Positions 5,778 through 34,840 of a stretch of DNA of 34,840 nt are shown here, in pieces. The position numbers were made by a program, and so were the translations under genes. The stretch's first letter is position 1, and every line of letters starts with the position of its first letter. The DNA comes from a virus, in IMG/VR virus record IMGVR_UViG_3300024264_000094, positions 1-34,840 of that record, one strand, 5' to 3'. The notes under the pieces were generated by a model. That model saw only the letters and a program-made list of their open reading frames with translations, was not told the origin of the DNA and did no database searches.

Positions 5778-6482
5778 ATGTCAGAAGAAACAATCGTAGC
5801 AGAAGCTACAAACGAAAACACAGAAACAACAAATCAAGTTTCTGAACAAATAGAAGAACAAAAAACTTTCACACAAGCTCAATTAAATAGCATACTTGAA
5901 TCTAGAGTTATGGCTGAAAGAAGAAAATACGAAAAGAAAATACAAGAAGAAGAAACTCAGAAAGCTGAACTTTTAAAAGAACAGCAATTAAAAGAAGCTA
6001 AATCTAAATCTGATATTGAAAAGATAATGCAAGACCGATTATCTGAAAAGGAACAAGAAATCCAAAAGATCAAAAGTGAAATGGTAGCTGAAAAAATAGA
6101 TAAACAGATTCTTGCTGTTGCATCTAACAATAAAGCTGTCGTTCCTGAACAAATAGTATCTTTGTTAAAATCTGAACTTCAATTAGCTGATGATGGTAGA
6201 GTAGAAGTACTTGATAATAATAGAAACATCAGATATAACGAAAAAGGACAACCTTTAACTGTTGAAGATAGAGTTAAAGAGTTTTTAGATACGAACCCAC
6301 ATTTCCGTCAAGGGTCTTTGTCTGGATCAGGAAGCCAGAGCAGTATCGGTGGTAATAGCCTCAAACCTAGAAGTATAGGCGACTTGGATTTAAACAATCC
6401 TGCTGATAGAAAAGTTTACAAAGAAATGCGTAATACTAGAAGTAGTTTTAAATTAAATCCTAAATTAACAATTAACAATTAA
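5778..6482 (+). CDS. Capsid scaffolding protein
   Basis: The 234-residue, Glu/Gln/Lys-rich protein has a long coiled coil (about residues 45-115) and a Gly/Ser-rich linker near 180-190 (GSLSGSGSQSSIGG). The C-terminus is short and basic. Coiled coil plus small C-terminal capsid-binding tail, immediately upstream of the major capsid gene, is the usual scaffold layout. AAGGAG precedes the ATG at good spacing. No protease gene is visible nearby, so scaffold release without cleavage, or cleavage by another route, must be assumed. Confidence 0.85.
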   Translation: MSEETIVAEATNENTETTNQVSEQIEEQKTFTQAQLNSILESRVMAERRKYEKKIQEEETQKAELLKEQQLKEAKSKSDIEKIMQDRLSEKEQEIQKIKSEMVAEKIDKQILAVASNNKAVVPEQIVSLLKSELQLADDGRVEVLDNNRNIRYNEKGQPLTVEDRVKEFLDTNPHFRQGSLSGSGSQSSIGGNSLKPRSIGDLDLNNPADRKVYKEMRNTRSSFKLNPKLTINN

Positions 6483-6496
6483 CAATAGGTAATAAC

Positions 6497-7348
6497 ATGG
6501 CTAACGAAACAACATCGTCAACGCTATCGGAACTGTACACAGAAATTATCCAAGAAGCTATTTTTAACTTCCAAGAAACATCTGTTATGAGACCGTTGGT
6601 TACGACATACAATATCACAGGACAAGGCAAACAAATTGCAGTTCCTGTATATCCAACTATCAGTGCGGCGGCAGTAGCTGAAGCAACTGATTTATCAAAC
6701 ACAGCAATCAATCCAACTGAAGCAACTATAACTGCTTCTGAAGTTGGAGTAATGACTACATTAACTGACCTTGGTAGAGATACTGCGTCAAGAGATGTGG
6801 CGGCTGACATCGGAAAATTATTCGGTGAAGCAATTGCTAAAAAAGTAGATGCAGATTTATCAGCTCTATTCTCAGACTTTGCTGGTGGCAATGACTTGGG
6901 TGGTGCTGGTGTTGAATTAACTGCTGATCTGTTACTTCAAGCTGAAGCAACGCTAAGAACATTAAACATTCCTAGACCTTACTATGGTGTGTTTTCTCCA
7001 AAAGCAATGTTTAACTTGAAGAAAACTCTAACAGCGGCTGGTTACTCAACTGGTGCAAATGCTTTAGGACAATCTCAAGAGCAAATCCTAAGAAGTGGTT
7101 ATGCTGGAACAGTATTCGGTATTGATCTTTATGAAAATGCAAACATTGCTTCTTTTGGTAGTGATGATGCAGTAGGTGGTGTATTCCATCCTCAATCATT
7201 AGGTCTTGCTATGAAATCTGATTTCAAAATCGAGACTCAAAGAGATGCATCTTTAAGAGCAACTGAGATCGTAGGTTCAGTAACTTACGGTACAGGCATC
7301 GTTAAAGATGACTTTGGTTGTCAAGTAGTAACGGATATGGCATTTTAA
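6497..7348 (+). CDS. Major capsid protein
   Basis: The 283-residue protein follows the scaffold gene and is the best match for the HK97-fold shell subunit. It has an N-terminal helix (SELYTEIIQEAIFNF) and VPVYPTISAAAVAEATDL. A PRPYYGVFSPKAMFNLKK segment marks the A-domain core. It ends in GTGIVKDDFGC. Codon use is more GC-rich in places than its neighbours (GCG, GGC), as often seen in highly expressed capsid genes. It is followed by a stable hairpin (7361-7386). Confidence 0.88.
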   Translation: MANETTSSTLSELYTEIIQEAIFNFQETSVMRPLVTTYNITGQGKQIAVPVYPTISAAAVAEATDLSNTAINPTEATITASEVGVMTTLTDLGRDTASRDVAADIGKLFGEAIAKKVDADLSALFSDFAGGNDLGGAGVELTADLLLQAEATLRTLNIPRPYYGVFSPKAMFNLKKTLTAAGYSTGANALGQSQEQILRSGYAGTVFGIDLYENANIASFGSDDAVGGVFHPQSLGLAMKSDFKIETQRDASLRATEIVGSVTYGTGIVKDDFGCQVVTDMAF

Positions 7349-17140: not shown

Positions 17141-18460
17141 ATGGGTTTTATAGGTCGAGCAGTAGCACCATCTCCAATCTCTGCAAACGATGTTCCTGAT
17201 TTACCAGCATCTAAAATTACAAGCGGTACTTTTGCAGAAAGTTTTTTAACAAATGCAACAACAGATTTACAACCTTTAAAATCTGACATAACTGCTTTAG
17301 CATTAAGAGAAGCTACTAACGAAAGTTCAGCAAGTTTTAATTTACCAAATCAACATATTGACACGTTTGCAACAGATACTTTAGGAACTAAAACTAATAC
17401 AAGCGTTGTTAGTGGGTATGTTGCTTCTTCAATAGATAACACACCGACAGGAACACAATTATATTTAAAATCTAATTCAGCTTCAAACAACTCTACAACT
17501 ATATCTGATAGTTCAGGAAATAATGTACCTGTATCTTTTGAGGGTAATGCAAAAAATATAGTTGACGGTGGTTCTAATATTATAGGAACTTCGGCTTATT
17601 GGATTGATGGCGGTAGTGATAGGGTTGCAGTCACAACTTCTAATTTTTCATCAAGAGGAAATTTTGGTACAGGTGCTTTTACACTAGCAGGATATTTTAG
17701 ATTTAATTCTGTAAGTAGCGAAAGACCATTAATAACGTTTGGTGGTTGGGGTGGAAGTGCTGATTATAATGGTTGGAGTTGGTTTCACAACGCCTCAAAT
17801 AAATTATTCTTTTATGCTAGACAAGGAAACTCAACAGTAATTTCTGTTTCAAGTGATGCTTTATCACTTGCTAGTGATACTTGGTATCATTTAGCAGTCA
17901 CAAGAGATAGTTCATCAACTATTAAATTTTGGAAAAATGGCGTATTATCAGGCACACATACTAGCCAAAGTGGGAACATAGCTTCTTTTGATGACAGAAA
18001 TTTACAACTCGGAAGAAATGGCGACGACGGATATACTTATGCAGGTAGATTTGATAATATTATAATTAATAAAGGTTATGACCTTTACACATCAAACTTT
18101 ACAGCACCAACAAGCTATTATGGATTACAAACAAACACAACAGGAACGGCTATACAAGATACAAATACAGTAGGCTCGTCTAAGAGTAATGTTGGCGGAA
18201 CTTTTTTATATAAAAATAATAGCGGTACTGCAACACTTGGAACTGATTTAAAGATTTACTTTACTTGTAATGGTGGCACAAATTGGACGGAAGCGTCAAG
18301 CTACAATGCAATTACGCCTGTCTATTCAACAGGAATTTCACAAGTACGTTTAGGTAAAACAACGTGTACTGCGGGTACAGACGTTCGTTATAAAGTAGAA
18401 TGGGCGAACCAATCAGGTAGTAAAACAACACAATTACATGGAATAGGAATTAATTACTAA
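17141..18460 (+). CDS. Tail fibre with LamG-like (concanavalin-type) domain
   Basis: The 439-residue protein has a fibre-type N-terminus (ISANDVPDLPASKITSGTF). The central LamG/concanavalin-like jelly-roll (about residues 145-310) shows FTLAGYFRF, WYHLAVTRDSSSTIKFWKNG and LQLGRNGDDG. The C-terminal module ends WANQSGSKTTQLHGIGINY and recurs in the next gene. LamG-type domains commonly bind glycans, so this is a good candidate for surface polysaccharide recognition. It is one base from the next fibre gene (TAATG). Confidence 0.75.
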   Translation: MGFIGRAVAPSPISANDVPDLPASKITSGTFAESFLTNATTDLQPLKSDITALALREATNESSASFNLPNQHIDTFATDTLGTKTNTSVVSGYVASSIDNTPTGTQLYLKSNSASNNSTTISDSSGNNVPVSFEGNAKNIVDGGSNIIGTSAYWIDGGSDRVAVTTSNFSSRGNFGTGAFTLAGYFRFNSVSSERPLITFGGWGGSADYNGWSWFHNASNKLFFYARQGNSTVISVSSDALSLASDTWYHLAVTRDSSSTIKFWKNGVLSGTHTSQSGNIASFDDRNLQLGRNGDDGYTYAGRFDNIIINKGYDLYTSNFTAPTSYYGLQTNTTGTAIQDTNTVGSSKSNVGGTFLYKNNSGTATLGTDLKIYFTCNGGTNWTEASSYNAITPVYSTGISQVRLGKTTCTAGTDVRYKVEWANQSGSKTTQLHGIGINY

Positions 18461-19560
18461 TGTCTATTATTAAATTAAATAACAACGCATTAACAAGTGT
18501 AACTGAATTACCAAGTGGTGTAGGTGCTGATCCAAATGTTAAAGTTGATTTAGCACGATTAGGTTTGAGAGTTTTTGCAAATCAAAACCTTGTAGCGACT
18601 AATTCTAATTCAGCAAGTTACGATGTATTTCAAGATTCAACAGGAATCGGTTCATTAACTTCTTCTTCAAGGTCATCAGATGAGTATGTATCTTCAGTTG
18701 TTGATACGACAGCTTCTTCTGGTTCTTATGCAGAAATAACTTATACTCTAGTTGATAATGTCACTTCAAATGTTACTGTCCATAGTGGAAGTTCAGGTCA
18801 TGTAAGCTCTGGTGGTAATTTACCAAATTTTTATACATACCCTGCAGGTGGTGGGCCAAATCACTATGGTTATCATAGCGACTATTCAATATATCCATCA
18901 AATTCTTTTGGTGTAGGAAACTATTTACAAATTAAATATACTTCTGGTAATGGACAAAAATTACATGGCATACAAACTTGGACAAATAATATAGGAACAA
19001 CTTCAAATACTGTTAGGTGGACAGCCTCTAATGATGGTTCTAATTTTGTTAATCTTACTGCAAACACACAAACTTTTATTGGTAGTAGTGGCGAAGTTAA
19101 AATTGCTCATCAATTTGACCAAAACATAGATACATATTTATATTATAGATTAACAGTTATAAGTGGTGCAGTAGATGGTGGTAATAATAGATTTTGGTCT
19201 GGTTATAAAGGTGACGTTGCAACTGGTGGATTAACAGTTAATGCAACAGGAAACTTTATATCCAATGCAATTACAGCTTCATCATCAACTTCAAAAATGG
19301 GTGCAATAATAACATATAAAGATCAAGCTGGAACAAATGCTCTTAATTCTGATTTAGTTTTACAATTAAGTGCTGACAATGGTTCAAACTTTAGCACAGC
19401 AACATTAACTGCATTACCTGACTTTGCAAGTGGTGTTAAATGTTGTAAGGTATCTGATCTTTCAGTTACTGCTGGAACGCAGTTGAAGTACAAAATAAGT
19501 TTTGCAAATCAAAGTGGAAGTAAGGAGTGTAGAGTTACAGGCGTATCTCTGCAATATTAA
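18460..19560 (+). CDS. Tail fibre protein sharing a C-terminal module with its neighbour
   Basis: The 366-residue fibre has a central beta-rich Ser/Asn/Thr-rich domain (about 60-260; GVGNYLQIKYTSGNGQKLHG, FDQNIDTYLYYRLTV). This resembles discoidin/F5-8-type carbohydrate-binding folds. The last ~85 residues (ITYKDQAGTNALNSDLVLQL ... FANQSGSKECRVTGVSLQY) are clearly homologous to the end of the preceding fibre. The fibres therefore differ mainly in their middle, receptor-facing domain. Confidence 0.72.
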   Translation: MSIIKLNNNALTSVTELPSGVGADPNVKVDLARLGLRVFANQNLVATNSNSASYDVFQDSTGIGSLTSSSRSSDEYVSSVVDTTASSGSYAEITYTLVDNVTSNVTVHSGSSGHVSSGGNLPNFYTYPAGGGPNHYGYHSDYSIYPSNSFGVGNYLQIKYTSGNGQKLHGIQTWTNNIGTTSNTVRWTASNDGSNFVNLTANTQTFIGSSGEVKIAHQFDQNIDTYLYYRLTVISGAVDGGNNRFWSGYKGDVATGGLTVNATGNFISNAITASSSTSKMGAIITYKDQAGTNALNSDLVLQLSADNGSNFSTATLTALPDFASGVKCCKVSDLSVTAGTQLKYKISFANQSGSKECRVTGVSLQY

Positions 19561-28631: not shown

Positions 28632-29404
28632 AACTACCCTCAATACCATTATTTACAGATACATTTACTGCTGAAACAGTTCATCTATCTAATGAACAAG
28701 TTGGAATATATATAAGATTATTATGTTTTGCTTGGACTAAGAACGCAAAGCCATTTAAAGAAAAAGATGCAATGAGAATTTGCCAATGTAGAACTAAAGA
28801 TTGTGAATTAAGAGTTATGGAAGTTCTAACTGAATTTTTTATAATAAACAAAAAAGGCGATGATTTTATTTTTACACACAAAAGAATCACAAAAGAATAC
28901 GAATATTTACAGAAATATTACGTAAATAAAAGTGAATCAGGTAAAAGAGGAGCATTAAAAAGATGGAATGGTGCTAATAGCGAAACGATGGCACCTATAC
29001 CTAGTCCTATACCTATTCCTAAAAATAATAATAATAACTTTGATATTTTTTGGGATAATCTTAGCAATAAGAAAGGAAGTAAAAAGATGGCTAAAGTTAA
29101 ATATGAAAAAGAATGTAAAGATCAAGACCCTATACAACTTGCTAAAATATTTAATTATTATTCAGGTAAAATTAAGGATAAAACATTCATTCCTCACGTA
29201 GCTACATGGATAAACCAAAGAAGATTTGAAGATGAAGATGTTAAATTAGACCCAAAAAAAGCCACATTTATAACAAAATTAGATGATGGACGAGAATTTA
29301 AGGTTATTGGAGATTTTGGGAATTATTTTGAAATATTGCTTGATGGCCAAAAATGGTATAAACACAAATTTAAGAATGATGAACCACTTAAAAAGGATAT
29401 TTAA
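28628..29404 (+). CDS. DUF1376-type replication protein
   Basis: The 258-residue protein opens with the DUF1376 block: PLFTDTFTAETVHLSNEQVG then IYIRLLCFAW (F-x-x-D-T ... L-S-x-E-x-x-G-x-Y-x-x-L-L-x-x-x-W). An Asn-rich linker follows and then a C-terminal domain with FIPHVATWINQRRFED, typical of phage O-like or DnaT-like initiation proteins. It is the only clear replication initiator in the genome. A host helicase (DnaB) would be recruited, because no phage helicase is seen. Confidence 0.8.
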   Translation: MKLPSIPLFTDTFTAETVHLSNEQVGIYIRLLCFAWTKNAKPFKEKDAMRICQCRTKDCELRVMEVLTEFFIINKKGDDFIFTHKRITKEYEYLQKYYVNKSESGKRGALKRWNGANSETMAPIPSPIPIPKNNNNNFDIFWDNLSNKKGSKKMAKVKYEKECKDQDPIQLAKIFNYYSGKIKDKTFIPHVATWINQRRFEDEDVKLDPKKATFITKLDDGREFKVIGDFGNYFEILLDGQKWYKHKFKNDEPLKKDI

Positions 29405-29409
29405 TTTTA

Positions 29410-29535
29410 ATGATTGCAACGTCAACATCGCTATCTGTTTTATACACTAAAAAAATAATAGGTAAAAAACGTAAAGGTAAGGCTAATGTTAATAGATCAG
29501 TTCAAAAAGTAGTTAAAAAATATAAATTAAAATGA
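29410..29535 (+). CDS. 41-aa basic peptide
   Basis: The frame MIATSTSLSVLYTKKII... is followed by a Lys-rich tail (KKRKGKANVNR; VVKKYKLK). It overlaps the next short gene by four bases (ATGA). No strong ribosome site is seen; translation may be coupled to the gene before, five bases away. Unknown function. Confidence 0.45.
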   Translation: MIATSTSLSVLYTKKIIGKKRKGKANVNRSVQKVVKKYKLK

Positions 29536-29666
29536 AGAACTTTTTAAGACTTTTCAAGTTTCTTAGAAAAAGACTAATTAATATATCAATAGAAAATAAA
29601 TTACTAAAAGAACAATTAGAAATTTATGAAGCAATCTTAGAGGCAAAAGATGTTAAAAAGCAGTAA
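29532..29666 (+). CDS. 44-aa basic helical peptide
   Basis: The frame MKNFLRLFKFLRKRLINI... begins with a basic amphipathic helix and ends with a coiled coil (NKLLKEQLEIYEAILEAKD). It overlaps both neighbours (4 and 17 bases). Its amphipathic start could touch membrane or DNA. Unknown function. Confidence 0.45.
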   Translation: MKNFLRLFKFLRKRLINISIENKLLKEQLEIYEAILEAKDVKKQ

Positions 29667-29940
29667 AAAAAGTATATACAAACATCTTATAATTAAAAAT
29701 AAAAGATATTATTTTTATAAAATAACATGGGCCGATATAACAGGAGATAGTGGTCATGCTGATTTACATACTGCTTCAGGCTTTATGCCCTCAATAATGG
29801 TTACTCATGCTTACTTGCTAAACAAAGATAATAAAAATATAAGAACATTTGCAAGTTATGAAGTGGATAGTGAATTATTTTCTGATAGGAATGTATTTCC
29901 TAAAGGTTGTATTATTAAAATGGAAAAAATTAAAATATGA
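29650..29940 (+). CDS. Conserved-looking phage protein of unknown function
   Basis: The 96-residue, mainly beta protein contains ITWADITGDSGHADLHTASG and then DRNVFPKGCIIKMEKIKI. The W-x-D-I-x-x-D-S-G and D-R-x-x-x-P-x-G-x-I pattern is one seen repeatedly in phage proteins with no known role. It immediately precedes queE (ATGA overlap) and may be part of that operon, but similar genes occur away from que genes. Confidence 0.6.
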   Translation: MLKSSKKSIYKHLIIKNKRYYFYKITWADITGDSGHADLHTASGFMPSIMVTHAYLLNKDNKNIRTFASYEVDSELFSDRNVFPKGCIIKMEKIKI

Positions 29941-30554
29941 TTAACATACATGAAACATTTCAAGAAACCCTACAAGGAGAGGGTTATCATACAGGAACTG
30001 CTTGTGATTTTATAAGAACTTATGGATGTCCTGTTGGATGTTATTTTTGTGATACAGGATATGAACCTGACGGAGATTATTATAATAAAAAAATTCCTAA
30101 AGTAAAAAAATCAATAGAAGAACTTATTGCTGAACTTAAATCTGAATTAGTAGTTATTAGTGGTGGCGAACCTTTTATTAATAAAAATTTACCAACACTT
30201 TGTAATGAAATAATTAAAACAGGAAGAAAAGTTAGTATTGAAACTTCAGGAAGTTATTGGCAACCTATATCAGATGAAGTGTATGTAACTCTTTCTCCCA
30301 AACAACATATAAGCCCTAAATTTCCTGTGTTGCAAGGCTTTTGGAGACGTGCGAATGAGTTTAAATTAGTTATATCGGAGGGAGATGAATTAGATTTTTA
30401 TAAAGAACATTTGAAAAATTACAAAGGTAGAAGATATTTACAACCAGAATACAACGAACACTCTAAGTCTTTACAAAACTGTTTAAATTTGATAAAGGAC
30501 AACCAAGAGTATAAATTGAGTTTACAAACTCATAAAATTATAAATGTACGATGA
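29937..30554 (+). CDS. queE: 7-carboxy-7-deazaguanine synthase QueE (radical SAM)
   Basis: The 205-residue enzyme converts 6-carboxytetrahydropterin to 7-carboxy-7-deazaguanine (CDG). The radical-SAM cluster motif C31-x3-C35-x2-C38 (YGCPVGCYFCDT), SGGEP (75-79), and GEG near the start (QGEGYHTGT) are all present. LSPK and the C-terminal LSLQTHKI are usual QueE blocks. Slightly shorter than cellular QueE. It is joined to queD by an ATGA overlap, so the pathway enzymes are co-translated. Confidence 0.93.
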   Translation: MINIHETFQETLQGEGYHTGTACDFIRTYGCPVGCYFCDTGYEPDGDYYNKKIPKVKKSIEELIAELKSELVVISGGEPFINKNLPTLCNEIIKTGRKVSIETSGSYWQPISDEVYVTLSPKQHISPKFPVLQGFWRRANEFKLVISEGDELDFYKEHLKNYKGRRYLQPEYNEHSKSLQNCLNLIKDNQEYKLSLQTHKIINVR

Positions 30555-30997
30555 GCTTTATATCAACTAAAACTTACAATCACAATATTGGTCTGTCTTG
30601 TGCTTTCCGACAATGGAGAGCAAAACATAGTCATTGTAAATATATGCATGGATATGCTTTATCAGTAAGAATAAATTTTAAAGGACAACTTAACGATAGA
30701 AATTGGGTTTATGATTTTGGTGATCTTAAATTTGTTAAACAATTTTTGCAAGATACTTTCGATCATAAAACAGTAGTTGCAGAAGATGATCCTGAATTAG
30801 AAACATTTAAAGAATTAGAAGAAAAAGGTTTAATTCAACTTGTAGTTATTCCTCATGTAGGTTGTGAAAAATTTGCAGAATATATTTGCCAACAGATTGC
30901 TCCTCAGATAGTAGTTAATAGTAATGAACGAGTTAAATTAATGTCAGTAGAAGTAAGAGAACACTCAGGAAATTCAGCTATATACATAAATGATTAA
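30551..30997 (+). CDS. queD: Divergent QueD (6-carboxytetrahydropterin synthase)
   Basis: The 148-residue T-fold protein makes 6-carboxytetrahydropterin from the FolE product. It has [12 protein letters not shown] (C29, H33), FDHKT (Asp-His pair, about 70-71) and the closing [11 protein letters not shown] with the catalytic Glu. Two of the three canonical zinc histidines differ: the FxAAH block is replaced by SCAFRQW and the HGH pair reads HGY (Tyr35). Nearby H26 and H28 might substitute. The subfamily seems phage-specific. Overlaps both neighbours (ATGA; 8 bases). Confidence 0.87.
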
Positions 30998-31838
30998 AAA
31001 ATATTTAAGTTGGGGAGATTTCTTTGATCTCTTAACACCTTTACAATTATTAATAAAACCTGATGACATAGTATTTGGAGTTCCAAAAGGTGGAATGATT
31101 GTTTCAAATTTTTTAACTTGTAAAAAAACTCACGATCCAACTCGAGCAACTGTTATTGTAGATGATATAGTAGATAGTGGTAGAACAAAAAAATTACATA
31201 CAGATAATTTTCCTTTAGCTAAATTTATGGCTGTTATAGATAAACAAAAAAAACCTGACTATGATGGGTATATTGTTTTTCCTTGGGAACAAGCAGAAGA
31301 AGATGCTGAACATACTGTTGCTAAAATGATTGAACATTTAGGAGACAATCCTAACAGAGAGGGCATAATAGATACTCCAAAAAGAGTAGTTAAATCTTGG
31401 AAAACTATTTATGGTGGATATAACCAAACACCTGAAGATGTTTTAAAAACAAGTTTTAATGTTGATTACGATGAAATGATTATTTCTAAAGATATTGAAT
31501 TTTATTCTACTTGCGAACATCATATGTTACCATTTTTTGGAAAAGCACATATTGCATATATTCCAAGAGCAAATGTTGTAGGACTTTCTAAATTATCAAG
31601 ATTACTAGAAGTGTATGCAAGAAGATTGCAAATACAAGAAAGATTAACAAATCAAATAGCAGATGGAATGATGAAAGTAATGAATCCATTAGGATGTGGA
31701 GTTATTATTGAAGCTAAACATTTTTGTATGGTTTGTAGAGGAGTACAAAAGAAAAATTCAACAATGATTACTTCAGCTATAAGAGGTTTGTTTAAATCAG
31801 CAGAAGTCAAAAACGAATTTCATAGGCTTTGTAAATGA
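30990..31838 (+). CDS. folE: Phosphoribosyltransferase-GTP cyclohydrolase I (FolE) fusion
   Basis: One 282-residue frame joins two enzymes. Residues about 1-98 are a type I phosphoribosyltransferase: GVPKGG (30-35) and the PRPP loop [12 protein letters not shown] (55-66). Residues about 104-282 are GTP cyclohydrolase [21 protein letters not shown] with zinc ligands C175 and H178, and AKHFCM with C246, then RGVQKKNS. FolE begins deazaguanine synthesis from GTP. The PRTase might salvage guanine into GTP or act on a deazaguanine base, which is unproven. No frameshift or stop separates the halves. Confidence 0.9.
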
Positions 31839-32179
31839 AAACAACAATAGTATGTAGATTACAAGTTGAGGGTATTCATCAATGGTCTAATTGTCCATTT
31901 GAAGATGTTAAGTTTCTAAAGGACCCACATAGACATATCTTTCATATTGAATGTGAAAAAGAAGTTCATCACGATGATAGAGATGTTGAATTTATAAGAT
32001 TTAAAAGAGAAATTACAAAGTATTTAGTAGATAAATACGATGATGGCGAATGCTTAAAATTTAATAATATGTCTTGTGAAATGATTGCTAAAGAATTGTT
32101 AACTAAATACGATCTAATTAAATGTTCTGTTTTTGAAGATAATGAAAATGGAGCAAGTATTTATCAATACGAAGTTTAA
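31835..32179 (+). CDS. Small protein with QueD-like histidine pattern
   Basis: The 114-residue protein has H15-x-W, then H32-R-H34-x-F, D48-R49-x-x-E-F, SCE (80-82) and EDNENGA (101-107). H15 with H32-x-H34 is close in spacing to the zinc triad of QueD enzymes (H16, H31, H33 in E. coli). The catalytic Cys before the HxH is missing. It is coupled to folE by an ATGA overlap. A T-fold protein acting with or regulating the deazaguanine enzymes is a reasonable guess. Confidence 0.5.
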
Positions 32180-32419
32180 TTTTACGCAAATTTTATTGTT
32201 CTGGACTTTACCCTTTAACAAGCAACTCTACTAACTATGCAATTTCTTAAAAAAAGAGAGAAAAAGAGCAACCACATAATATGCGAGTGCTGATAAAAAA
32301 AGAGAAATAGCACAACTGCATAAACAGTAGGTCTTGATACTTTAAGAGAAAAAGAGCAACTTAATTTTATGCGTGTTTTTGTACTTGCTATCGGAAAGCA
32401 AACAAGTTAAGAACATTAA
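32180..32419. other. Gene-poor stretch with repeats
   Basis: These 240 bases contain no convincing gene. The only ATG-led frames are an 18-codon one at 32237 and a 13-codon one at 32369. No tRNA arms are seen. Its main content is the 44-base-period repeat listed separately and a short TTGCT/AGCAA stem near 32383-32400. It separates the FolE side from the DpdA side of the deazaguanine block. Confidence 0.6.
32257..32388 (+). repeat. Three imperfect direct repeats with a 44-base period
   Basis: Units begin at 32257, 32301 and 32345, exactly 44 bases apart. The 16-base core AGAGAAAAAGAGCAAC is identical in units 1 and 3. Unit 2 (AGAGAAATAGCACAAC) matches at 13 of 16. Units 1 and 3 also share ATGCG at the same internal offset (32281, 32369). 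A weaker AGCAAC...TATGC relative lies at 32221-32240. The function may be regulatory binding sites for late genes or for DNA packaging or replication proteins. Confidence 0.65.
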
Positions 32420-32563
32420 ATGGCCAAAAAAACAGTATCAGCACCTAGAGGTTTTCATTGGATGAAAAAAGGTTCAAGTTTTAGATTAATGAAAGGTGCA
32501 TACAAACCACATAAGGGAGCAGTAAAAAAAGCTAGTTTTACTGTGCAAAAAAGACATAAGTAA
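32420..32563 (+). CDS. 47-aa basic protein
   Basis: The frame MAKKTVSAPRGFHWMKKGSS... has basic residues spread through its length (KGAYKPHKGAVKKASF). The stop shares one base with the dpdA ATG, suggesting translational coupling. Very similar small proteins are familiar from marine phages near packaging genes; the function is unknown. Weak ribosome site. Confidence 0.6.
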   Translation: MAKKTVSAPRGFHWMKKGSSFRLMKGAYKPHKGAVKKASFTVQKRHK

Positions 32564-33369
32564 TGAAAGTTCACTTTGCTGGGCATGAAGATGTAGGAAT
32601 GTCTAAGCCATTAAAAAAAGCTGGAGTAAAATATGTTCTTGGAAGTTTTTATCAAATAAGAAGATACAAAGACCAACATGCTATTGATTTTGTTAAATGT
32701 CTTAATAGCTACAAACACACTATTATAGACTCAGGTTTATTTACATTAATGTTTGGTGCTAAATCTCACACAGTACTAACAGAACAAATGATTATTGAGT
32801 GGCAAGATCAATATGCTAATTTTGTTAATAAAACAGGATATAAGCATTCAATAGTAGAATGTGATGTCCAAAAGAAAATATCTCCTGAATTTGCTTGGGA
32901 AATGAGAAAAAAATTTAAGACTCAGGTAAATGTTCCAATTATAAATGTATATCACTTAGAAGATGGCAACCCTGATAAGTTAATTGATTATTCAGATTAT
33001 ATTGCTGTGTCAGTTCCTGAATTAAGGTTTAATGTATCAAATGCTGAAAGATTAAAGATAACAAGATACATAAGTCAAAAAGCTACTTCTAAAGGTAAGA
33101 AAGTACATCTATTAGGTTGCACAGAACTAAAAATGATGAAAGAATTTCAATATTGTTATAGTTGTGATAGTACAAGTTGGTTTTCAGGTAGTAGATTTAA
33201 TAGTTTTAGATCAAAAGCATTACCTAATATGGAAAAAGTCGATATAAATAGACTTAAACAAAATAAAATTGATGAATTTAAAGATTCAAGTAAATCAACT
33301 AATGTGTTCTATTGGGAGGCTTATTTAAAACTTCAAGAATACAAAAAATATGCTGGAGGACAAGAATGA
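32563..33369 (+). CDS. dpdA: DpdA-like DNA/tRNA-guanine transglycosylase
   Basis: The 268-residue protein resembles the TGT/DpdA superfamily, which swaps guanine for a 7-deazaguanine base. IIDSGLFTLMFG (54-65) holds Asp56 in the place of the catalytic D-S-G-G-F-Q block of TGT. VECDV has Asp101, and HLLGCTE (182-188) parallels the TGT H-x-L-G strand. SCDSTSWFSGSRF offers Asp202 as the nucleophile equivalent. It is shorter than cellular TGT (about 370) and lacks its terminal zinc cluster, as expected for phage DpdA. Pathway genes upstream support a DNA-modifying role. Confidence 0.72.
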   Translation: MKVHFAGHEDVGMSKPLKKAGVKYVLGSFYQIRRYKDQHAIDFVKCLNSYKHTIIDSGLFTLMFGAKSHTVLTEQMIIEWQDQYANFVNKTGYKHSIVECDVQKKISPEFAWEMRKKFKTQVNVPIINVYHLEDGNPDKLIDYSDYIAVSVPELRFNVSNAERLKITRYISQKATSKGKKVHLLGCTELKMMKEFQYCYSCDSTSWFSGSRFNSFRSKALPNMEKVDINRLKQNKIDEFKDSSKSTNVFYWEAYLKLQEYKKYAGGQE

Positions 33370-33983
33370 ATAAAGTAGAAACCATGAACATAGACAATCT
33401 AGTTAAAGCTGGATGGAACTATAAGACAGATGGTACTGAAGAACAGATAAATAAATTAATAAAATCTATAAAGTATGATGATAGTGCTGGGATAATAGCA
33501 GTAAGAAAATTAAATGATAAATATGAAGTTATTGATGGAAACCATAGATTAGAAGCATTACAAAGAATAGGATGGCAACAGATTCAAGTAGAGAATTTTG
33601 GAGACATTTCCAAAGCAAAAGCCATTATTATTGCTAGACGAAGAAACCATGTATGGTTTGATGATGACTTAAAAGCATTTAGTGATCTAATTAAGAACGA
33701 TGTATTACCTGAAATAGATACAGATACACTTAAAGATATACTACCAGATACACCAGATGAGATTGACAACTTAGTTAATTTTGGTAATTTTGATTGGGAA
33801 GAACCTATTGAAAAAGAACCTAAAGATGATGATGGTAAAAAGACAATAGTAGTTAAGGTAGATGAATCGGTTTATCAAATGTGGCAAGATTGGGTCAAAT
33901 GGTGTGCTGAACAAACAGATTACAAGAGTGAACCTGAAGCATTTGAGTATTTAATAATTGAGGCTAAAAATGGACAAAAGTAA
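33366..33983 (+). CDS. ParB-like nuclease-domain protein
   Basis: The 205-residue protein (start ATG overlaps the dpdA stop as ATGA; an upstream alternative would read into dpdA) has the ParB N-terminal fold. EEQINKLIKSIK is followed by VIDGNHRLEALQRIGW (55-70), the D-G-x-H-R core, and ISKAKAIIIARRRNHVWFDD. In bacterial dpd clusters a ParB/DndB-like protein (DpdB) works with DpdA, so coupling to dpdA is suggestive. ParB-like proteins also often stand before small terminases, as here, and may serve in packaging or regulation instead. Confidence 0.8.
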   Translation: MNKVETMNIDNLVKAGWNYKTDGTEEQINKLIKSIKYDDSAGIIAVRKLNDKYEVIDGNHRLEALQRIGWQQIQVENFGDISKAKAIIIARRRNHVWFDDDLKAFSDLIKNDVLPEIDTDTLKDILPDTPDEIDNLVNFGNFDWEEPIEKEPKDDDGKKTIVVKVDESVYQMWQDWVKWCAEQTDYKSEPEAFEYLIIEAKNGQK

Positions 33984-34338
33984 TAGCAAAGAACTTATAG
34001 TAGTAGGAAGACCTAAAAAGGAAGTTGATCCAAAAATACTAGGAAACTTAGCATCTATTGGATGTACGATTGAAGAATGTGCGTCAGTTATGGGTGTGTC
34101 AGCTAGAACATTAAGGCGTAATTATGCCGAAATTATTGACCAGAATAAAGAAAAAGGCAAAGCTAGTTTAAGAAAAAAGATGTTTGATAAAGCTATTAAG
34201 AAAGACAATACACATATGCAAATTTGGCTTTCAAAAAACTATTTAGGAATGAAAGATAGAACTGTTAATGAAAACATAAATGAACCATTACCATTAATCA
34301 TTGAAGCCAAAGTAGAAGATGTCAAAGAAGAAAGGTAA
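33970..34338 (+). CDS. terS: Terminase small subunit-like protein
   Basis: The 122-residue protein starts at ATG with GAGG 6 bases upstream, preferred over a TTG 12 bases earlier. GRPKKEVDPKILGNLASIGC leads into an HTH (residues 33-52, TIEECASVMGVSARTLRRNY) and a helical segment ending IWLSKNYLGMKDR. This is the usual make-up of small terminases that recognise phage DNA for packaging. It lies about 1.66 kb upstream of terL around the circle, separated by small genes. Confidence 0.78.
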   Translation: MDKSNSKELIVVGRPKKEVDPKILGNLASIGCTIEECASVMGVSARTLRRNYAEIIDQNKEKGKASLRKKMFDKAIKKDNTHMQIWLSKNYLGMKDRTVNENINEPLPLIIEAKVEDVKEER

Positions 34339-34471
34339 TGTATATGGAGCAGTTGTTGTTTATGAAAAGAAACACAAAAGAACTTCAATAGGTGGTGGTA
34401 GAGTTAAAACTTCATCAATGAATAAAAATAAAAGAAGATCATATAAAAAGTATCATGGACAAGGCAGATAA
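34319..34471 (+). CDS. 50-aa basic protein
   Basis: The frame MSKKKGNVYGAVVVYEKKHK... includes RTSIGGGRVKTSSMNKNKRR and ends HGQGR. It overlaps the small-terminase end by 20 bases. Near-identical style proteins are commonly found beside packaging genes of pelagic phages. The high Lys/Arg content suggests DNA or capsid-interior binding. Weak ribosome site. Confidence 0.6.
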   Translation: MSKKKGNVYGAVVVYEKKHKRTSIGGGRVKTSSMNKNKRRSYKKYHGQGR

Positions 34472-34583
34472 ACAAATAGAACAACTCAAATCTGAGTTAA
34501 ATATAGTCAAAGACCAAAGAGACAAGTTATTAAAGTTTGTAGCAAAGATTAAAAAACTATTAGAAATGTATGGCCTAGTATGA
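34455..34583 (+). CDS. 42-aa coiled-coil peptide
   Basis: The frame MDKADKQIEQLKSELNIV... forms a single heptad-patterned helix (LKSELNIVKDQRDKLLKF) through to the end. It starts 17 bases inside the preceding gene. Possibly a dimeric accessory protein of packaging. No strong start signal is seen. Confidence 0.5.
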   Translation: MDKADKQIEQLKSELNIVKDQRDKLLKFVAKIKKLLEMYGLV

Positions 34584-34596
34584 TATTTAGTCTTTT

Positions 34597-34701
34597 ATGG
34601 CTACTTTAGATAAATACATTATTAAATTTTTAACAGTTATTGATAACTTTAATCAATCTATTGCTAATCTATTAGCCCCTAAAAAAAAGAAGAAAAAATA
34701 A
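34597..34701 (+). CDS. 34-aa peptide with poly-lysine tail crossing the genome join
   Basis: The frame MATLDKYIIKFLTVIDNFNQ... ends PKKKKKK and its stop lies at 34699-34701, equal to bases 9-11 of the left end. It therefore spans the circular join, showing the ends are continuous. An amphipathic helix plus Lys tail could be membrane-active. Unknown function. Confidence 0.5.
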   Translation: MATLDKYIIKFLTVIDNFNQSIANLLAPKKKKKK

Positions 34702-34840
34702 TTTATGAGTATTAATATGAACTATTATTTTACAGGTGGATTAATTATTGCATTTATAATACTAACAGTATTGGTGGCTCCAATATGAAAATATCTGACA
34801 CTACATCTGTTGCTATGCCAATTAAGAACATGGTTGGTAT
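34691..34840. repeat. Terminal direct repeat, right copy
   Basis: Second copy of bases 1-150, with A instead of G at 34714. It contains a full second copy of the 27-aa membrane peptide gene (34705-34788, here Asn4) and the first 56 bases of the coiled-coil membrane protein gene (from 34785, truncated by the window end). These are not extra genes but the circular overlap. Confidence 0.9.

Follow-up and report, generated by a model that had tools for sequence, protein, structure and literature searches.

The enzymes FolE, QueD and QueE convert GTP to 7-carboxy-7-deazaguanine (CDG) (PMC13329287). In phage 9g, the transglycosylase DpdA together with Gat-QueC inserts 7-deazaguanines into DNA; deletion of dpdA from phage CAjan leads to loss of the modification, and the 7-deazaguanines inserted by phage DpdA protect DNA (Hutinet et al. 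2019, PMC6884629). The cassette described here, carried by virus record IMGVR_UViG_3300024264_000094, resembles these 9g/CAjan systems of the DpdA1 type, since it also encodes FolE, QueD, QueE and a homologous DpdA. In contrast to 9g, it has neither QueC nor Gat-QueC but a QueD-like protein instead, its DpdA is shorter (268 compared to 317 amino acids, aa) and the genome is of only 35 kb. We refer to the whole stretch of 34,840 nucleotides (positions 1 to 34,840 of the record) as the window. The cassette occupies positions 29937–33983 (4,047 bp, 11.6% of the record) and all its genes are on the + strand.

Other relatives also lack QueC. Cellulophaga phage phiST and Acidovorax phage ACP17 combine QueD, QueE and FolE with a member of the protein family phrog_17812, in phiST the protein YP_007673448, and have no QueC, as in the window, but their transglycosylase candidates (clusters c6 or c7, see below) are not matched by the profile of the window DpdA and their clusters additionally encode, for example, a MazG-like pyrophosphatase or a glycosyltransferase. 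Mycobacterium phages Bipper and Hilltopfarm likewise have a QueC-less 7-deazaguanine pathway with DpdA. The bacterial dpd restriction-modification island, on the other hand, is a cluster of more than 10 genes which includes defence genes, whereas the window carries a compact phage cassette; PADLOC, run on six of the cassette proteins, gave no dpd match. The Pelagibacter phages HTVC026P and HTVC112P share the same virion module as the window (TerL 81–85% identical) and its synteny but neither carries the cassette. The class of system is therefore already known and every part of it has relatives elsewhere.

We propose, with a probability of roughly 0.6, that the cassette makes CDG from GTP, that the QueD-like protein decarboxylates it and that DpdA inserts the 7-deazaguanine into DNA. 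That the cassette performs some form of DNA guanine modification is, judging from the sequences, highly probable.

DpdA and the enzymes leading to CDG

DpdA (32563–33369, a short form) belongs to phrog_887 (E 1.9e-18), a family annotated as "queuine tRNA-ribosyltransferase". The profile of its alignment matches the experimentally studied DpdA of phage 9g with an E value of 5.5e-57. Residues D56, D101, H131, H182 and D202, which include the catalytic aspartates and the conserved 9g-type histidine, occur unchanged in 9g, Seurat, Quinobequin and Hilltopfarm. No solved structure was found with the profile by sequence. The AlphaFold2 (AF2) model has a predicted local distance difference test score (pLDDT) of 75.7 and is weak past residue 205. 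When this model was compared to known structures with VIA-align, the 50 best entries were all TGTs (Z 16.2–16.8, 240–249 residues aligned). An earlier first-pass annotation of the window, made from the letters alone, had left the TGT-likeness of this protein to be judged by structure comparison, and the comparison places it with the TGTs, as does the match to 9g. On sequence and model, the window protein is a DpdA-type DNA guanine transglycosylase, with base insertion as its predicted activity.

All four enzyme names proposed at first pass (QueE, QueD, FolE and DpdA) are borne out by family matches. QueE (29937–30554), a 7-carboxy-7-deazaguanine synthase of the radical S-adenosylmethionine type, matches phrog_2076 (E 8e-33) and TIGR04322 (E 5e-32, under that model's curated cut-off) and includes both the CxxxCxxC and GGE motifs. 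QueD (30551–30997), a 6-carboxytetrahydropterin synthase of the "HGY" subtype, matches phrog_2389 (E 4e-42) and PF01242 (E 8e-20) and retains C29, D71, H72, E106 and E137, which are invariant in the QueD alignment. The HGY and AFRQ motifs had raised the suspicion that this QueD is inactive; this was rejected, as the same subtype is also found in phages with QueC. FolE, the GTP cyclohydrolase I, forms the C-terminal part (aa 107–281; PF01227, E 1.6e-70) of a fusion protein (30990–31838) and carries the CEHH zinc motif. Membership of these families suggests that FolE, QueD and QueE would together make CDG from GTP.

The N-terminal part of the fusion (aa 1–104) is an XGPRT-like purine phosphoribosyltransferase (PRTase) domain. 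It matches phrog_8995 (E 1.7e-5) and the xanthine PRTase model NF006613 (E 2.6e-5, below the curated cut-off), and shows a phosphoribosyl pyrophosphate-binding motif, a PKGG loop and FPWE. In an alignment of the domain D58-D59, D62 and T66 are invariant and the P-K/R-GG loop and FPWE are conserved. The idea that the PRTase-FolE fusion is unique to QueC-less phages was rejected, since PRTase matches occur near FolE in phages with QueC: Quinobequin, Vibrio 033B and a Stenotrophomonas phage have such matches in frames of about 300 aa, most simply read as the same fusion, which is thus probably not unique. In three further loci (L053, L061 and L064) a PRTase is found approximately 1–2 kb upstream of the phrog_17812 gene and looks more like a hypoxanthine-guanine than an XGPRT-type enzyme, which would fit recruitment of purine PRTases on more than one occasion.

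The phrog_17812 protein and the missing QueC

As noted at first pass, there is no QueC: PF06508 has no match in the record. QueF, QueA and QueG were not seen in the family scans, for which about 30 window proteins were compared to PHROGs and 10 to Pfam and NCBIfam; amidotransferases were looked for among these. The window represents a permuted and nearly complete genome. A sister contig of 33.4 kb (G001) reads across both window ends with no gap of note and a second, of 35.2 kb (G002), shows the same wrap (both by blastn). The absence of QueC is therefore not a truncation artefact, and it was fair to call the window a genome of about 35 kb.

The gene following FolE (31835–32179) encodes a protein of 114 aa. 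The first-pass inventory included the four enzymes but overlooked both this gene and the PRTase domain. The protein belongs to phrog_17812 (E 4e-23) and has no Pfam or NCBIfam name. Its AF2 model (pLDDT 94.8) has the T-fold and resembles E. coli QueD most closely (VIA Z 12.9, root-mean-square deviation 2.0–2.1 over 106 residues), and the family profile matches PH0634, a Pyrococcus QueD homolog (E 7e-4). H15, H32 and the nearly invariant H34 are located at the QueD zinc-ligand positions, and E82 and E101 at those of the base-binding glutamates. The family has 16 invariant residues, including two zinc-type histidines and SCE; H15, H32, R33, R49, E52, S80-C81-E82 and E101-DNENG are invariant in its alignment. 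The catalytic C29 and D71-H72, invariant in QueD, are absent from this alignment, and no nucleotide-binding motif that might serve an activation step is obvious in the protein. Since the QueD catalytic residues have been lost and the same operon already encodes a normal QueD two genes upstream, we interpret the protein as a QueD-fold enzyme with another reaction: on its model it has a QueD-like fold but is not a QueD.

The family is present in 27 isolate records and in more than 100 IMG/VR loci. Where phrog_17812 is flanked by 4.5 kb or more on each side (49 loci), there is a transglycosylase candidate in 42, FolE in 41, QueE in 35 and QueD in 30. QueC is present in only 1 of the 57 virus records with phrog_17812 compared to 13 of 14 QueE phages without it, a comparison set chosen across genera. 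Many IMG/VR records are fragments and the figure for named isolates is therefore cleaner: 1/12 compared to 13/14 (Fisher P 3e-5, a statistic which ignores kinship). The sole QueC-like match in a phrog_17812 isolate (Vibrio D479) is partial, covering model positions 133–201, and weak sub-cut-off matches in Xanthomonas X1 and in the DpdA-only phage phiFN37 were left out of the counts. This distribution points to the phrog_17812 family as a QueC substitute. The most straightforward interpretation is that the family, standing in for QueC, acts on the QueC substrate CDG.

There is another way in which a phage could do without QueC: DpdA may insert CDG itself to give CDG in DNA (dCDG), the QueD-like protein acting as a chaperone, a channel or a second QueD. 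The lack of QueC in the genome would fit, and Bipper, which lacks QueC only, has been suggested to carry CDG (PMC6884629). Hilltopfarm (locus L112), where QueE, QueD and DpdA are present but neither QueC nor a phrog_17812 match was found, may, like Bipper, carry plain CDG in its DNA, and CDG-only phages may therefore exist. No phrog_17812 match was found in any Mycobacterium phage. In the phages which do have it, however, the family is strongly conserved, co-occurs with a separate QueD in the same operon and stands where QueC would otherwise be, as would fit an enzyme acting on CDG. Plain CDG was one of two outcomes foreseen at first pass; its likelihood is lowered by the dedicated QueD-like protein, which stands in for QueC wherever it occurs, and we regard dCDG in the window phage as rather unlikely.

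The transglycosylase found beside phrog_17812 occurs in three forms: the phrog_887 DpdA of the window and two TGT-like clusters, c6 and c7. Cluster c6 (phrog_20335; L002, 12801–13577) aligns to DpdA (hhalign E 1e-6), while c7 (phrog_10773; L006, 5694–6941) has a conserved DSGG and a weak match to the Pfam TGT family. These unannotated proteins stand in for DpdA in phiST-, ACP17- and BUCT-ZZ01-like phages.

Host and insertion site

TerL is 80–85% identical to that of Pelagibacter phages HTVC026P, HTVC202P, HTVC112P and HTVC111P, and the virion genes are syntenic with those of Pelagibacter phages. The window phage is probably a pelagiphage-like siphovirus from the ocean with SAR11 bacteria as its host. 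This bears on the second outcome foreseen at first pass, the borrowing of host QueC for preQ0; preQ0 might also be imported, and in both cases DpdA would insert preQ0. DpdA-only phages may indeed use host preQ0 (PMC6884629), and the presence of TGT in 20 of 26 SAR11 genomes makes 7-deazaguanine salvage possible. On the other hand, QueE was found in none of the 26, and their PF06508 matches reach at most 33 bits, cover mostly the N-terminal part and fall in frames of 380–640 aa, as expected of other PP-loop enzymes (MnmA, ArgG, GuaA), whereas genuine phage QueC scores 161–252 bits with this model. Part of the 26 genomes are incomplete, but the absence of QueE and QueC is consistent across the set. 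Without QueE and without a convincing QueC in SAR11, borrowing from the host is unlikely, and CDG has to be produced by the phage itself. Moreover, its QueD and QueE would be wasted if preQ0 were available, and the preQ0-type phage pathway (group 2 of Hutinet et al. 2019) needs QueC, which this near-complete genome lacks. We consider insertion of preQ0 to be very improbable.

The cassette is flanked on the left by a gene outside the pathway (phrog_25889, 29650–29940, + strand), homologous to HTVC026P 6393–6665, and on the right by a small-terminase-like gene (33970–34338, + strand; phrog_309, E 3e-10), homologous to HTVC026P 6712–7035. In HTVC026P, the homologs of both flanking genes adjoin (approximately 6.39–6.67 and 6.71–7.04 kb) and the cassette is absent, so that in the window it occupies a site which is otherwise empty. 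The boundaries drawn at first pass (29937–33983) are those of the cassette to the base. In HTVC112P, the same slot is filled with ParB-like, SNF2-like and FkbM-methyltransferase genes. Because it is empty in one relative and carries other genes in another, the slot is an accessory hotspot and the cassette is a swappable unit within it.

This variability also bears on whether the cassette could serve tRNA queuosine synthesis or folate and nucleotide metabolism rather than DNA modification. FolE, QueD and QueE are common to tRNA queuosine synthesis, and TGT is present in the host. However, the operon includes the 9g-homologous DpdA, lacks QueC, has none of QueF, QueA and QueG among the proteins scanned, and occupies a slot which is filled quite differently in HTVC112P. 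A role of this type seems to us extremely improbable.

The description of the cassette as a single run of overlapping genes holds for QueE, QueD, FolE and the 114-aa gene, which overlap by 4–8 bp, but is interrupted by an A-rich stretch of 240 bp (32180–32419) with no annotated gene. This is absent from both sister contigs (blastn). It lies between the QueD-like gene and a 47-aa open reading frame and includes loosely repeated AGAGAAAAAGAGCAAC motifs; a tandem repeat, an Rfam family and a terminator were looked for here and none was detected. The 47-aa frame (32420–32563, from the open reading frame list) encodes a basic protein and abuts dpdA. Its DNA is common to both sister contigs, and no significant family match was found in Pfam, PHROGs and NCBIfam scans. 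The final gene of the cassette (33366–33983) encodes a ParB-like protein (PF02195, E 2.6e-6; phrog_723, E 6e-16) and comes after dpdA in sister loci too. It has an ATG at 33366, and the TTG start listed at 33312 is doubtful. An Rfam search of 29400–34840 gave no match, and terminator and promoter scans performed no better than on shuffles. Elsewhere in the window, two genes of the tail-fibre region (17141–19560), which encode proteins of 439 and 366 aa, are unmatched in both HTVC026P and HTVC112P; the sister contigs diverge here at the DNA level as well, probably as a result of host-specificity swapping.

Proposed pathway and its significance

In the pathway which we favour, the 114-aa QueD-fold protein would act on CDG instead of QueC, most likely by decarboxylation to 7-deazaguanine. 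DpdA, by homology to the 9g enzyme, would then swap guanine in phage DNA for this base in a post-replicative step, and the base in the DNA would probably be 7-deazaguanine (dDG). The PRTase domain probably serves in salvage: guanine set free by DpdA would be turned into GMP and would return to FolE as GTP, so that the exchange would be pulled forward. By analogy with related phages, for which this is established, the modified DNA would resist host restriction.

Cui and co-workers reportedly described, in 2023, a phage CDG decarboxylase, DpdL, along with dDG and dCDG. Phage phiST, which has the arrangement of the window without QueC, is reportedly a dDG phage. A literature search on DpdL, dCDG and DpdA3 returned unrelated matches only. 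DpdL has the same predicted position in the pathway, acting on CDG in QueC-less phages, and phrog_17812 is indeed found in 7-deazaguanine clusters without QueC. If the two are the same, the base here is dDG.

Several observations weigh against this interpretation. The C-terminal third of DpdA is poorly modelled (pLDDT <50), and with Foldseek alone the top-ranked structures were generic TIM barrels (pyruvate kinase). The identity of phrog_17812 with DpdL is a putative one, based on distribution. The PRTase profile matches 3 of the 14 comparison phages and 3 of the 12 phrog_17812 phages in the isolate set; since both groups are matched alike, the domain is not specific to the QueC-less branch, and its salvage role is a guess. 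Finally, a GT4-like glycosyltransferase (cluster c4, for example L026, 6311–7342) is present in 49 of 97 phrog_17812 loci, often directly downstream, and ACP17 and BUCT-ZZ01 are among the relatives which have it; this is hard to reconcile with a plain decarboxylated base in those loci.

The GT4-linked clusters possibly produce a glycosylated deazaguanine and further undescribed modifications. It is conceivable, in keeping with this linkage, that phrog_17812 turns CDG into another undescribed 7-substituted base which is glycosylated in many relatives. Yet there is no GT4-like gene in the cluster of the window or of the sister contigs, the protein lacks the nucleotide-binding motif mentioned above, and a decarboxylase is already reported in this pathway; for the window phage we find such a base distinctly improbable. 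The wider proposal that phrog_17812 makes a new 7-substituted deazaguanine, to which the linked GT4-like enzyme adds a sugar in roughly half of the phages concerned, the pelagiphage cassette being the minimal form, is also improbable. If true, it would represent a sugar-decorated deazaguanine hypermodification not yet described.

A DpdA-based, QueC-less DNA-modification cassette, as first proposed, is well supported, and decarboxylation of CDG by the QueD-like protein remains our preferred explanation for the missing step. What is useful here is that a widespread "hypothetical" family can be named as a very likely QueC substitute, that it is found in a pelagiphage accessory slot and that it is repeatedly tied to guanine salvage and, in about half of the related clusters, to a GT4-like glycosyltransferase. 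The cassette provides a compact and testable pathway of four steps, leading from GTP to modified DNA, in a phage related to those of SAR11, a very abundant group of ocean bacteria. It would also tie guanine salvage, through the PRTase-FolE fusion, to the exchange of guanine in DNA, a connection overlooked in the annotations of these phages.

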